Below are positions 6,619 through 12,369 of a DNA stretch of 45,860 bases, piece after piece. Each line of letters starts with the position of its first letter. The stretch's first letter is position 1. A program made the position numbers and the translations under genes. The notes under the pieces are model-generated. The model ran no database searches and was not told the DNA's origin. It saw only the letters and a list, made by a program, of their open reading frames with translations. This DNA is from Brachyspira pilosicoli (lineage in GTDB: Bacteria; Spirochaetota; Brachyspiria; Brachyspirales; Brachyspiraceae): the NCBI RefSeq assembly GCF_008016535.1, contig NZ_SAXY01000002.1:1-45860 (forward strand). The letters are read 5' to 3'.

Positions 6619-8739
6619 GTGGCAACTATTAATAATGCTAAATCACTTTTAGATTCGATAAAATTACCTACAAATCTTAGTAGGCATAGCGACATAATGT
6701 TTGCTATAGGTGCGGTTATGGTAATAATGATGCTTATTATACCGCTTCCTTCTATGGTTTTGGATTTTCTCCTTATCATAAATATAGTTATATCTTTGCT
6801 AATACTTCTTATGGTTTTAAGCATAAAGAGTGCCAGTGAGTTTAGTGTATTTCCTTCTGTGCTTTTGGTTATGACTGCATTTAGACTTGCATTAAATGTT
6901 TCTACTACAAGAGCAATACTTACACAGGGTGCTAATTTTAATGGTAAGGTTATCACTTCATTTGCTGAGTTTGTAGTTGGTAATAATATAGTTGTTGGTG
7001 TTGTAATATTTATCATACTTATAATAGTTCAGTTTGTAGTAATTACTAAGGGTGCTACGAGGGTATCAGAAGTAGCAGCAAGATTTGCATTAGACAGTAT
7101 GCCTTCAAAGATGATGGCAGTTGAAAGCGAACTTCAGGCTGGTGCTATTACAGACAAAGAAGCAGAAGATAAAAGAAAAAAGATAAGAAGCGAGAGTGAT
7201 TTTTATGGTACTATGGACGGTGCTTCAAAGTTTGTTCAGGGTGATGTTATAGCGGGAATTATAATCACTATCATAAACATAGTAGGCGGGCTCATAATTG
7301 GTATGACAATGAGAGGAGAGCCTTTTGCTCAGGCTGCTGATGCTTATACTCGTTTTACTGTGGGGGATGGATTGGTAAGTCAGATACCTTCTTTCTTTAT
7401 GAGTTTCGCTACAGGTTTGCTTGTTACTAGAAGCAGCAGTGAAGATAATTTGTCTACTCAAATTGCTGTACAAGTTTTTGCTAAACCAAAGAATTTGTTC
7501 ATTGGTGCAGGTTTTGCATTCTTTTTAATGTTCTTACCTGGCTTTCCAAAGATAGCATTATTTGTTATAGCATTAGCATTATTTTTAGCAGGTTATGCTA
7601 TAAGAAAAGAACAGCAAGAGCTTGGTCTTAATGAAGATGGTACAAAAGCAGAAGCTCAAGAACAGCCTCAAAATGGTCCTTTGGATGTTACACCTTTCTT
7701 AAAAGTAGAAAAGATAGAATTATCCATTGCTACATCATTAGTACCTTTGGCATTAGAATCTGAAGGGGGAGATTTAATACATAGAATAACACAGATTCGT
7801 AGAGAACTTGCTTTGGAAGTTGGACTTGTAGTTCCACCTGTTCGTATAGTAGATAATCAGGCTATAGAACCAGATGAATATACTATTAGCATTAATAATA
7901 CAGAAATGGCTAGAGGTTTCGTTCGTCCTAATATGCTTCTTGCTTTGAATGCTAATTCTAAAGAAGGTCCTACTCCTGATTGTGAAAGCGTTAAAGACCC
8001 TGCTTTTGGACTTCCTGCTTATTGGATTAGGGTTGCTGAAAAAGACACTGCAGAAAGAAAGAACTTTATGTTGTTTGAGCCTACTGCAGTTATTGCTACA
8101 CATTTCAGCGAAATAATTAAAAGAAATGCTAATCTTCTTATCGGACGAGAAGAAGTACAGAATATGCTTGACCTTATTAAAGATGACAATAAGGCTCTTG
8201 TATCAGAAGTTCTCGCCGCTAAACCTCATAATGAGAGTCCTCTTGGATATATACAAAAAGTATTGCAGAATTTGCTTCAAGAGGAAATACCTATCAGAAA
8301 CAGTGTTGCTATATTAGAAGGTATTGCTGATGCTATAACCATTATGGGAAGTGAACAGGCTACTGAATTGGTAAGAAGCAGATTAGCTCCTCAAATATCA
8401 CAGCTTATAGCTGATGACCAGAGAAATATAAGAGTTATCACATTAAGTCAGCAGTTGCAAAATAATATAGCTCAAAATTTAGCTGACAGCGGAAATATAC
8501 AAGGCTCTCAAATGATAGCGATGAGTTTTGAGAGCATGCAGGCTCTTATAAGAAATATAAAAGATGCTGTAAAATTAGTTCAAGAGTCTGGAGTTGATGA
8601 GATAGTGTTCTTAGTTTCACCACTTATAAGAAGACCTTTGTATCAGTTTATTGCTAAGAATGTTGGTAAGTATAAAGTAGTTGCAACAACCGAAATAGCA
8701 CAGGGTTACAATGTGATGGGTGTTGCTAGCATAAAATAA
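6619..8739 (+). CDS. flhA: flagellar export protein FlhA
   Basis: This 706-residue protein has about eight N-terminal membrane segments (residues ~25-330), the FHIPEP-region loop (ALDSMPSKMMAVESELQAG, SESDFYGTMDGASKFVQGD) and a large cytoplasmic domain that docks chaperone-substrate complexes. The GTG start at 6619 is chosen because GGAGG (6605-6609) sits 9 bases upstream; an ATG at 6612 is out of frame. It lies 13 bases after flhB. The linker after the last membrane helix (QEQPQNGPLDVTPF) is normal. Confidence 0.97.
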   Translation: MATINNAKSLLDSIKLPTNLSRHSDIMFAIGAVMVIMMLIIPLPSMVLDFLLIINIVISLLILLMVLSIKSASEFSVFPSVLLVMTAFRLALNVSTTRAILTQGANFNGKVITSFAEFVVGNNIVVGVVIFIILIIVQFVVITKGATRVSEVAARFALDSMPSKMMAVESELQAGAITDKEAEDKRKKIRSESDFYGTMDGASKFVQGDVIAGIIITIINIVGGLIIGMTMRGEPFAQAADAYTRFTVGDGLVSQIPSFFMSFATGLLVTRSSSEDNLSTQIAVQVFAKPKNLFIGAGFAFFLMFLPGFPKIALFVIALALFLAGYAIRKEQQELGLNEDGTKAEAQEQPQNGPLDVTPFLKVEKIELSIATSLVPLALESEGGDLIHRITQIRRELALEVGLVVPPVRIVDNQAIEPDEYTISINNTEMARGFVRPNMLLALNANSKEGPTPDCESVKDPAFGLPAYWIRVAEKDTAERKNFMLFEPTAVIATHFSEIIKRNANLLIGREEVQNMLDLIKDDNKALVSEVLAAKPHNESPLGYIQKVLQNLLQEEIPIRNSVAILEGIADAITIMGSEQATELVRSRLAPQISQLIADDQRNIRVITLSQQLQNNIAQNLADSGNIQGSQMIAMSFESMQALIRNIKDAVKLVQESGVDEIVFLVSPLIRRPLYQFIAKNVGKYKVVATTEIAQGYNVMGVASIK

Positions 8740-8775
8740 ATAAGTTTTTAATAAAATATTATTGGAGTAATGATT

Positions 8776-8949
8776 ATGAAAACTATTAAAATTTTTGGAA
8801 AAAACAGAGAAGAAATTGAAAAACAGGCTAGGGACAAATATGGTGAAAATTATTTTATTATTAGTATAAGAGAATTAAGCAGAAAAAATATATTTGGCAT
8901 TATAAAAAAAGAATTTGAAGTATCTATCGGCGTTTTAGAGCAGTATTAA
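8776..8949 (+). CDS. free-standing FlhF N-terminal (B-domain-like) mini protein
   Basis: This short reading frame between flhA and flhF encodes 57 residues from ATG 8776 (59 from ATG 8770; TGGAG at 8763-8767 suits either). It aligns end to end with the first ~52 residues of the adjacent FlhF. Both share a beta-strand start, GK, then AR..YG.N, an I-S pair, a F-G turn and KK.E....I. The same fold type is seen in Jag-N-like modules. The gene fills the 228-base flhA-flhF gap almost exactly and has its own ribosome-binding site, so it is probably translated. Its function is unknown; it may modulate FlhF or be a decayed duplicate. Confidence 0.72.
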   Translation: MKTIKIFGKNREEIEKQARDKYGENYFIISIRELSRKNIFGIIKKEFEVSIGVLEQY

Positions 8950-8967: not shown

Positions 8968-10746
8968 ATGGTCGATATAAGAACAATCAGAGGAAAAGAT
9001 AAGACAGATGCTTTCGCTAAGGCTAGAGTTGAGTATGGGAGCAATTTTTATATATTATCTAGTAAAGATATTCAAGTGGGCGGTTTTTTGGGACTTGGAA
9101 AAAAGACTGAACATGAAATTAGAATAATGCTAAATAACTCTATATATGATAAAAAGAATGCTGATAAAGAAGTAAATGTAGAAGAAGAGAGTTATAATAA
9201 TAAATTAAATAGTGATAGAATAGAAATGAACAAGCATAAAACAGAAGTGTTGGATGCTAGTGAAATGGCTGAGAGATTAATTAATCTTAATAATGCTTTA
9301 AAAAAATCAGCACGTGAGAGAAACGAAAATTTAATCGCTAAAAAGAATGCTGTAAATATTACTGAAGTTGAAAATGCTGAACTTAATAATAATAATAAAC
9401 CTTTTAAGCCTATACAATTTGAAGAAAGATTCGAAGAAAGAAAAGTAAATAATAGTTTAAATGATTTTAATAATAATTTTGGTATGATGGGCAGTGCCTT
9501 ATTAAGTGATTCTGACACTTCTTATGCTAAAAATACTTATAATGATTATTTATCGTATAATTCTCATCAGTACAACAAAAAAAATAATGTTGATAACATA
9601 GAAGAAAATGTAAAAAGAATTGTTCAAGATCAGTTAAAAGATATAGTTAAAGAGTATCTTGATAATAATATTCCAAATATAGATAGAAATAATTTTAACT
9701 CCAAAAATTATTCTAATGATAGAAGAGAAAAAAATAATTTTTATAATAATTATGATAGTATATTTCAAAATGAAGAGAGAAGTTTCAAAAATAAAATTGA
9801 AGAAATAAAAAATTATAGAGAGGAAAATCATTTAAACTCTTCTATTAGTGATAATAATAATAATTTTTATCAAGATGATAATTATTATAATTATGAAGAA
9901 GATGATGATTCATATTCTGATAAAAATATAGTTAATAAAGATTCTTCTGCTTCAGATAGTATGGAAGAGAGTTTTAATTTCTTAAGACATAGAGAGTTTC
10001 CAGAAGAGGTTTTACTTGAGTTAAGAGAATATTTACTTACTTCAAGCAATGCAAGATTTTTTCAATCTAAAGATGTTATAAAAGAAGAGATAGAGAGATA
10101 TTTTTCAAGTAAATTACTTCTTGCTAATGGAATAGATATAGGTGCTAAAAAGAAGATAGTAGTATTTGTTGGTCCTACTGGAGTTGGTAAAACTACTACA
10201 ATACCTAAAATAGCAGCACAGTATATGAGATCCGGTAAGAGGGTATCATTTGTAACAATAGATAATTATAGAATAGCAGCTGTTGACCAGCTTCAAAGAT
10301 ACGCTAGTATAATGAAAGTTCCTTTTACTAGTGCTAGCACTCCTGAAGCTTTGAGAGCAGAGATAAGAAAATTAGATAGTTCATCTTTACTTTTTATAGA
10401 TACTATGGGACGTTCTCCTAAGAGTGTTGAAGAGATAGTAGCTATGTCAAAATATTTTAACACTGTTGGAAGATTTGATATGGACGTTCAGCTTGTAATG
10501 AGCTCTACTGCTAAATATAAAGATGCTCTAAAGATTATGAATGCATTTAAACCTGCAAATTATAAAGGCATTATTTTAACTAAAGTAGATGAGACTGATT
10601 ATTTGGCTTCGTCTTTATGTGCTATATCCAAAAGTAAGATACCTATTACCTATGTAACTTATGGTCAGGGGGTTCCTAAAGATATTGCTCCTGCTAAAAG
10701 ATATGCTCATAAAATGATAGAAGGTTTATTTGGAAACGATAGATAA
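8968..10746 (+). CDS. flhF: flagellar placement SRP-type GTPase FlhF
   Basis: This 592-residue protein is long for the family. It has an N-terminal B domain (residues 1-55), then a long Asn/Asp/Glu/Tyr-rich, probably disordered linker (about 60-335), and a C-terminal NG GTPase domain. G motifs seen are P-loop GPTGVGKTTT (~401-410), DTMGRS (~477) and TKVDETDY (~538). FlhF recruits the first flagellar parts to the cell pole; in spirochaetes it helps set subterminal motor position and number. GGGAG lies 9 bases before ATG 8968. FlhG follows as its usual partner ATPase. Confidence 0.95.
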   Translation: MVDIRTIRGKDKTDAFAKARVEYGSNFYILSSKDIQVGGFLGLGKKTEHEIRIMLNNSIYDKKNADKEVNVEEESYNNKLNSDRIEMNKHKTEVLDASEMAERLINLNNALKKSARERNENLIAKKNAVNITEVENAELNNNNKPFKPIQFEERFEERKVNNSLNDFNNNFGMMGSALLSDSDTSYAKNTYNDYLSYNSHQYNKKNNVDNIEENVKRIVQDQLKDIVKEYLDNNIPNIDRNNFNSKNYSNDRREKNNFYNNYDSIFQNEERSFKNKIEEIKNYREENHLNSSISDNNNNFYQDDNYYNYEEDDDSYSDKNIVNKDSSASDSMEESFNFLRHREFPEEVLLELREYLLTSSNARFFQSKDVIKEEIERYFSSKLLLANGIDIGAKKKIVVFVGPTGVGKTTTIPKIAAQYMRSGKRVSFVTIDNYRIAAVDQLQRYASIMKVPFTSASTPEALRAEIRKLDSSSLLFIDTMGRSPKSVEEIVAMSKYFNTVGRFDMDVQLVMSSTAKYKDALKIMNAFKPANYKGIILTKVDETDYLASSLCAISKSKIPITYVTYGQGVPKDIAPAKRYAHKMIEGLFGNDR

Positions 10747-10775: not shown

Positions 10776-11654
10776 ATGAAAGATCAAGCAGATGAATTAA
10801 GAAAAATGATGGAAGTAAAAGATAAGCGACCTCAACGCATAATTAGTATCACTAGCGGTAAGGGCGGTGTAGGAAAAACTAATATTGCTATTAATTTGGC
10901 TATAGCATTGCAGCAGTTAGGGAAAAATGTACTTCTAATAGATGCAGATCTTGGACTTGGCAATGTTAATGTTATATTAGGTACTATACCTGAATATAAT
11001 TTATATCATGTTATAAAGGGTAATAAGAAGATACATGAGGTTGTACTAGAAACTGATTATGGAATCAGATATATTGCGGGGGCTTCTGGTTTTTCTTCTT
11101 TGGCGAATCTATCCAGCAGAGGTTTGACTAAATTAATAAATAGCATGGATTCTTTAAATGATGCTGATATAATTATAATTGATACTGGGGCTGGAATATC
11201 TGATAATGTTTTATATTTTTTACTTTCTTCAGATGAGAATATTGTTGTTACTATACCAGAGCCTACAGCTATACTTGATGCTTATGGGGTGATAAAATCT
11301 ATAGCTCCAGAAAATCCTAAGGCAGATATAAAAATTTTAGTTAATAGGGTAACTAAGGCATCTGAAGGTAAGGATGTTGGAGATAAAATTATAGAAGTTA
11401 GTAAAAGATATTTGGATATGGATATTAAATATTTGGGATATGTTCTTGAAGATAAGACTATAGCATATTCTGTATCGCAGCAGCTTCCTTTTTATCAATA
11501 TGATAATAAATGTCATGCTTCTATTTCCATATACAATATAGCTAAAAAAATTGTTGATATGGAATATGAGGAAGAGAAAGATAGTAAAGGATTATCTGGT
11601 TTTATGGAGTCATTATTTGCTTTTGTCAGCAAAAAAGAGACTAGAACTTATTAA
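10776..11654 (+). CDS. flhG: flagellar number regulator FlhG (MinD-like ATPase)
   Basis: This 292-residue ParA/MinD-family ATPase has a deviant Walker A motif (SGKGGVGKTNIAINLA, residues ~27-42), the switch DADLGLGNVNVILG and DTGAG. It belongs to the FlhG/FleN/YlxH group, which controls flagellar number by acting on FlhF GTPase activity. The N-terminus (DQADELRKMM) resembles the DQA[EQ]xLR activation helix of FlhG that stimulates FlhF. The C-terminus is long enough for a membrane-targeting helix, but I cannot define it firmly. Confidence 0.95.
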   Translation: MKDQADELRKMMEVKDKRPQRIISITSGKGGVGKTNIAINLAIALQQLGKNVLLIDADLGLGNVNVILGTIPEYNLYHVIKGNKKIHEVVLETDYGIRYIAGASGFSSLANLSSRGLTKLINSMDSLNDADIIIIDTGAGISDNVLYFLLSSDENIVVTIPEPTAILDAYGVIKSIAPENPKADIKILVNRVTKASEGKDVGDKIIEVSKRYLDMDIKYLGYVLEDKTIAYSVSQQLPFYQYDNKCHASISIYNIAKKIVDMEYEEEKDSKGLSGFMESLFAFVSKKETRTY

Positions 11655-11679: not shown

Positions 11680-12369
11680 ATGAATGATTTAATAGCTAAG
11701 GTAAAAAAATATTTTTCCAGCAATTTTGGAAAACTGTCGCTTATTATAATGGGTATATCATTTATATTTACTTTTATATTTTCTACATTGTTTAGAAATA
11801 GAATAGATGTATCTATTATAAGAGCTTTTATATCTACAGTAATTACCGGTATTATATTGTATACTTTAGCTATAGTTCTAAAAAAATTCTTATCTGATGT
11901 TATAGAATCTTCTGGGGTTTTTGATAATAATGTTTCCGATTCTTCCAATGTTTCTAATAATACTAATGATGAAATATTTAATAATAATGAAGAAGCTAAA
12001 GAAAATATAGATGTTAATAGTATAGATAATATTATAGGAAATAATAATTCTGAGCCTTCTATTGCTGATCCTTTAGATATTAATAAAACTGATAATAATG
12101 TTGCAGACAATGATATAATGCCTAGTATTGATAATATAAATGTTGATAAAAATAAAAAAGTAGATTATCATAATATGGGCGATATAGGGGACATAATATC
12201 TTCCGTTACAGATAATTCTAATACAGAAGATGTTAATGATTATTTTCCTCTCAAAAAAGAAACTGCTGATGCGGCTAGTTTAGAGAGAGAAGTAAAGGAG
12301 GACCCCGAAAAGGTTGCTAAAGCGGTAAGAACTATGCTTTCTAAAGAAGAGAAAAAAGAAAGTAAATAA
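11680..12369 (+). CDS. unknown two-span membrane protein with acidic Asn/Asp-rich tail
   Basis: This 229-residue protein has two transmembrane segments (about residues 16-36 and 45-66), followed by a low-complexity tail rich in Asn, Asp, Ser and Ile and a short charged C-terminus (EKVAKAVRTMLSKEEKKE). I do not recognise a family. It sits between flhG and the sigma-28 gene, 25 and 23 bases from its neighbours, so it is cotranscribed with the flagellar regulators. The Asn-rich tail resembles the FlhF linker in composition. A membrane anchor or scaffold role is only a guess from context. Confidence 0.85.
   Translation: MNDLIAKVKKYFSSNFGKLSLIIMGISFIFTFIFSTLFRNRIDVSIIRAFISTVITGIILYTLAIVLKKFLSDVIESSGVFDNNVSDSSNVSNNTNDEIFNNNEEAKENIDVNSIDNIIGNNNSEPSIADPLDINKTDNNVADNDIMPSIDNINVDKNKKVDYHNMGDIGDIISSVTDNSNTEDVNDYFPLKKETADAASLEREVKEDPEKVAKAVRTMLSKEEKKESK

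Follow-up and report, generated by a model that had tools for sequence, protein, structure and literature searches.

The gap between flhA and flhF in Brachyspira pilosicoli raises the question of whether a very short open reading frame can be a gene in its own right and, if so, what its product could do beside a complete FlhF. In this study, we have explored this frame, here called the mini-gene, in a window of 45,860 nucleotides (the whole stretch of DNA that was analysed, contig 26 of a 2.755 Mb genome) and in a set of 61 genomes, made up of this genome and 60 relatives. A first-pass annotation had described a frame of 57 residues with its own ribosome-binding site between the two flagellar genes, and the arrangement of the locus bears this out:

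6619..8739, plus strand: flhA, the upstream neighbour (Pfam FHIPEP, E 3e-227; TIGR01398 FlhA, E 1.3e-224)
8764..8767, plus strand: GGAG, the ribosome-binding core, 8 nt 5' of the ATG at 8776
8776..8949, plus strand: the mini-gene, 57 aa, 6.8 kDa, predicted to encode a stand-alone FlhF N-terminal domain like the FliG-interacting domain (FID); ATG 8776, TAA 8949
8968..10746, plus strand: flhF, the downstream neighbour, 592 aa (SRP54 GTPase domain at residues 396-586; TIGR03499)
8968..9141, plus strand: the FID-like head of FlhF itself, residues ~1-58 (TIGR03499 at residues 3-57, E 1.1e-6; model pLDDT 81.0; best PDB match 9en1, Z 7.3)
10776..11654, plus strand: flhG, an open reading frame for a MinD-type ATPase (Pfam CbiA, E 3.4e-17)

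The frame had also been considered to be under typical gene-calling length, which is not upheld at 57 codons, as gene callers usually accept frames shorter than this. The mini-gene is separated by 36 nt from the flhA stop (8739) and by 18 nt from the ATG of flhF (8968), and the full-length flhF beside it retains its own N-terminal domain. A second in-frame ATG at 8770 is only 2 nt past the GGAG; the start common to 31/31 genomes of the order is the ATG at 8776. We looked for a promoter and a terminator belonging to the mini-gene and found 29 promoter-like matches, compared with 28.9 in shuffled sequences, and four terminator-like sites, every one on the minus strand; because of these two results, we assume that the mini-gene is transcribed as part of an operon. 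Joining of the mini-gene to flhF by read-through or frameshifting was considered and rejected: the two share one frame in the window, but the spacer holds a TAG after the TAA, and the gap between them varies from 17 to 323 nt across 30 genomes, so that the frames differ among genomes. Further downstream, the N-terminus of the flhG product (MKDQADELR) fits, by eye, the activator motif DQAxxLR that is named in the excerpts of PMC11236974 consulted here. A 229-aa frame at 11680-12369, 3' of flhG, matched no Pfam or NCBIfam family; two hydrophobic stretches can be made out in it by eye, and its tail is of low complexity. It may be a candidate FlgV, as its place and make-up fit what is described in excerpts of PMC11607428.

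The annotation had proposed to search the flhA-flhF spacers of all spirochaetes for the frame, and this comparison delimits its distribution. The mini-gene was found, at E 6.6e-8 or better, in 31/31 genomes of the order of Brachyspira (our own, 25 more of the genus, three of the family and two of another family), and the 30 other spirochaetes of the set gave nothing better than E 0.0087. All 31 copies sit between flhA and flhF and start with ATG, 30 of them are intact, and each is preceded within 18 nt by GGAG, GAGG or AGGA at a spacing of 6-10 nt. The named matches are all from Brachyspira (18 loci), including B. pilosicoli T010, whose protein is identical to that of the window; further copies occur in B. 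alvinipulli, B. hampsonii 30446, B. innocens, B. catarrhinii and uncultured relatives. In the outgroup, flhA and flhF are immediate neighbours in 24 of the 28 loci fetched, and their spacers, three of which carry unrelated frames of 30-38 codons (by eye), contained no FID-like frame. A wider search of the phylum, which a strongly diverged short FID copy could escape, returned a match in 231 of 392 genomes and none in 161, and outside the order, among the matches listed, from which the weaker ones were trimmed, every one lay in a frame no shorter than 285 aa. Six genomes with multiple matches were re-examined together with G201 and G027, and those outside the order contained partial matches only and no full-length short FID. 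The weak second match of G027 (C17:22738) falls within a 466-aa frame that is, by eye, a tRNA-modification GTPase, and is therefore regarded as a chance match.

The pattern of substitution is that of a coding sequence. In G000-G024, the 25 genomes of the genus whose frame is intact, frame 0 contains no stops in any genome, the other two plus-strand frames average 4.4 and 6.8 stops, and the variable columns are distributed 16/16/50 over codon positions 1/2/3. As genome pairs are not independent, the following ratios are descriptive: pN/pS is 0.090 for the mini-gene (300 pairs, pN<pS in 299), 0.125 for flhF codons 1-57 (23 genomes, leaving out G006 and G010, in which the start differs), 0.123 for the last 100 codons of flhA, and 2.9 and 2.1 when the DNA of the mini-gene is read in its other two frames. 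The mini protein is identical in 72/300 pairs, with up to 25 synonymous differences between the genes. A lack of coding constraint, which the annotation had raised as a possible objection to the gene, is thus clearly contradicted. Based on these results, the mini-gene is a real and old gene that has been retained throughout the order of Brachyspira, and it is more strongly constrained than the start of flhF itself.

The identity of its product can be read from several comparisons. Within the genome, tblastn relates the mini protein to FlhF with 35% identity (E 0.0043), and the NCBIfam model of FlhF, TIGR03499, matches mini residues 1-54 with its profile positions 1-52 (E 2.8e-5); the same model matches 12 of the 15 distinct mini proteins at E<=0.01. 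Alignment of the mini family with the order's own FlhF heads by hhalign scored 96.5% (E 9.5e-10), and a profile for which 17 FlhF heads were taken solely from other spirochaete orders recovered all 15 distinct minis (18-41 bits) as well as 18/18 FlhF heads (26-54 bits). The motifs GK, AR..YG.N, I-S, FG and KK.E, on which the annotation had based its assignment to a free-standing FlhF N-domain, are all present. The homology extends over FlhF residues ~1-55 and ends there: with 57 aa, no NG domain and 24.3 bits against the TIGR03499 cut-off of 174, the mini protein is not itself an FlhF, that is, an SRP-type GTPase.

Structure prediction, also proposed at first pass, agrees with this assignment. 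The mini protein is predicted to form strand 2-8, helix 11-22, strand 26-37 and strand 43-53, and its AlphaFold2 model (pLDDT 88.5) has the same beta-alpha-beta-beta order, with three antiparallel strands and one helix as in 9en1, the FID of FlhF from Shewanella putrefaciens. This entry was the best PDB match of the model in both programs. Foldseek gave E 0.058 and a TM-score of 0.82 by target length, and structural alignment gave Z 7.5 (1.6 A, 48/48 residues), a Z below 8 not being specific alone; the window's own FlhF head, used as a yardstick, reached Z 7.3 (1.8 A over 47 residues). By sequence, the mini profile alone did not match 9en1, a mixed profile ranked it first (E 0.017) and a profile of FlhF heads only ranked it second (E 0.54). 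The other structural neighbours of the mini model are dodecin (Z 7.0), the Jag-like 3gku (Z 5.8) and Alba (Z ~5). As dodecin is a tie with 9en1 by the rule of the tool, the fold alone would not decide; the sequence and the place of the gene do.

These neighbours, together with a basic pI of 9.3, are what could suggest a nucleic-acid or flavin binder that merely shares the fold with dodecin, Alba or the N-domain of Jag. We regard this as very improbable, since the window's own FlhF head has the same neighbours and a pI of 9.5, and since the mini protein has sequence homology to FlhF only and its gene lies in the assumed operon. The Jag/KhpB N-domain (3gku) and dodecin share the beta-alpha-beta-beta arrangement but no sequence relation to them was found, no Pfam family matching the mini protein above cut-off; the likeness is structural only, and compared with 9en1 it is weaker for 3gku and tied in Z for the dodecins. 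Separately, the nearness of the FID fold to dodecins and to 3gku in the models leaves room for a remote relationship of the heads of FlhF to the N-domains of Jag. Taking sequence and predicted fold together, the mini-gene encodes the FID-like domain of FlhF as a separate protein, without linker or GTPase.

We then consider how a second FID came to stand beside FlhF. In a tree of 54 heads, built on 60 columns so that few of its forks resolve, the 15 minis and a second copy from G010 form one clade (98/98), and the 18 FlhF heads of the order, with second copies from G003, G020 and G024, form another (97/94); support for the two clades as sisters is 55/0, so the duplication may either have originated in this order or have been lost in others. 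The pair G029/G030 is set apart from the rest in both clades, from which it follows that the duplication took place before the two families diverged and predates the order of Brachyspira. Other copies are also seen. In G003 (B. hampsonii 30446), G020 and G024, a further flhF-start copy of ~84 codons lies between the mini-gene and flhF:

L013:1716-1970: second flhF-start copy
L017:1715-1969: second flhF-start copy
L016, reverse strand: second flhF-start copy

These three copies group together within the flhF clade (100/98). In G010, an extra short FID of 56 aa (L026:1693-1863) lies directly 3' of the mini-gene; it groups with the minis, though at the end of a long branch, and matches TIGR03499 at E 0.015. 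The release of an FID by tandem duplication therefore recurs in the order, with one copy retained, at least one further copy drifting and one further copy in G010.

The three flhF-start copies bear directly on the other reading that the annotation had offered, in which the mini-gene is a duplicated start of flhF that has drifted, considered here as a remnant without function. They establish that such partial copies do arise here, and they also show how differently a drifting copy behaves: their pN is 0.08-0.15 and their pS 0.15-0.31 (pN/pS ~0.5), while the mini-gene of the same three genomes has pN 0 and pS 0.19-0.33. As the adjacent copies drift and the mini protein remains unchanged, the mini-gene is not a drifting remnant. 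Its presence before the split of the two families and a constraint exceeding that of the start of flhF (0.090 vs 0.125) point the same way, and we reject the remnant.

What the protein does can be approached from the published role of the domain. According to excerpts of PMC11236974, residues 1-60 of FlhF from S. putrefaciens are necessary and sufficient for binding FliG, chiefly its middle and C-terminal domains (FliG-MC), and FliG bound to FlhF can bind FliF and not FliM/FliN, a block that FlhG is proposed to lift via the FlhF GTPase. FlhF of P. aeruginosa likewise binds FliG and requires a free N-terminus to do so (excerpts of PMC12713375). The suggestions of the annotation, that the mini protein could compete with or cap FlhF or share its partner, would agree with what PMC11236974 describes for the domain. 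The 9en1 domain and the mini protein are alike in homology, length (44-60 residues), predicted fold and adjacency to flhF. The key distinction is that the mini is a separate protein without linker or GTPase, found beside a full-length FlhF with its own head, and that its binding to FliG is putative. In the order, one FliG_C match was found in 29/31 genomes (none in G006, which is 88% complete, and three in G030, two of them in one frame). As a rule there is thus one FliG, so the mini protein and the FlhF head would meet the same one. Among the other spirochaetes, 20/30 have two or more FliG_C matches and 10/30 have one. Two simple explanations of the gene were rejected on these counts: a second FID is not needed for telling FliG paralogues apart where there is a single FliG_C, and a rule by which a single FliG calls for a mini-gene fails on the 10 outside genomes with a single FliG_C, given that no FID-like frame occurs in the spacers examined.

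Based on this, we infer, with a probability of roughly one half, that the GTPase-less FID binds the FliG of FlhF and acts in trans on the hand-over between FlhF and FliG. The mini protein would occupy the site on FliG used by FlhF's own FID. Because FliG bound to FlhF is open to FliF and closed to FliM/FliN, a free FID would keep FliG in this pre-assembly state, untethered from the site of FlhF; alternatively, it could displace FlhF from FliG. It lacks both a GTPase that could be switched and an NG domain for localisation. By either route, it would help to set the number of motors started, or the timing of C-ring completion, at each cell end. A more elaborate form of this model, possible though we hold it only tentatively, is that of a soluble anti-FlhF in the Brachyspirales: the stand-alone FID would cap the FliG pool in competition with the FlhF head, and the balance between free and FlhF-borne FID, governed by the two neighbouring genes, would decide how many periplasmic flagella are started per pole and when the C-ring closes.

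The residues that separate the two classes allow a different partner to be considered. Four positions are conserved within each class and differ between mini and FlhF (26 Y/F, 29 I/L, 40 F/L, 50 S/R), and other residues are conserved in one class only (R11, E24, K37, V49 and E55 in the mini; D3, N26, R52 and M54 in FlhF), so that the binding face may differ. Such a changed face could bind the head or linker of FlhF, FliF or another motor protein, without competing for FliG. The clear separation of the two clades would agree with this, as would the scores of the Brachyspira minis, which lie below those of the FlhF heads on the other-order profile. However, in G029 and G030 it is the mini that outscores the FlhF head on this profile (37-41 vs 26-32 bits), and FEVSIGVLE, which forms strand three of the mini, resembles by eye the corresponding strand of other-order FlhF heads (for example YEIEIGIPE in L066, L087); both observations suggest that the canonical face may be kept. 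We regard another partner as the less likely reading.

It could also be that the mini protein is a permanent small subunit of the C-ring or the export gate that remains attached to FliG or FlhA once the motor is complete, without regulating assembly, which would account for its strong and uniform constraint and its fixed linkage to flhA and flhF in 31/31 genomes. Such a subunit should be hard to lose, and yet in Brachyspira sp. G79 (G025; L093 / L111) the mini-gene has lost its frame through two deletions of one base each, both in A runs, with flhA and flhF intact and free of frame-breaking deletions. In a comparison with the close relative L102, 21 other A or T runs of at least six in the adjoining coding regions show no frame-breaking difference in G79, for which reason a true loss is as probable as a sequencing error. 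From the two deletions, the mini-gene may be dispensable in G79, and a permanent subunit appears unlikely. Breakage in close relatives, which the annotation had named as evidence against the gene, is thus seen in one of 26 genus genomes, all other order genomes searched carrying it intact.

The proposed action of the mini protein on FliG can be placed beside that of FipA and HubP, which also act where FlhF and FliG meet (excerpts of PMC11236974 and PMC12826062). These are unrelated membrane or landmark proteins, unlike the mini, which is a copy of FlhF's own domain. The FID is already known as a domain; no description of a conserved gene that encodes it alone was found among the open-licence papers listed in the searches.

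In conclusion, our results present an example of a domain freed from its enzyme that is proposed to act in trans. The mini protein would bear on the question of how FlhF and FlhG control the number and position of the several flagella at each pole of spirochaetes, and a 2025 review considers it unclear whether non-monotrichous flagellation patterns use the FlhF-FliG contact (excerpts of PMC12826062). A FliG-contact domain that is kept twice, with its lone copy under the stronger constraint, points to this contact being important in the order, and the mini protein offers a 57-residue handle for testing it. In Brachyspira and its relatives, the mini-gene may modulate the site or the timing of flagellar motor assembly.
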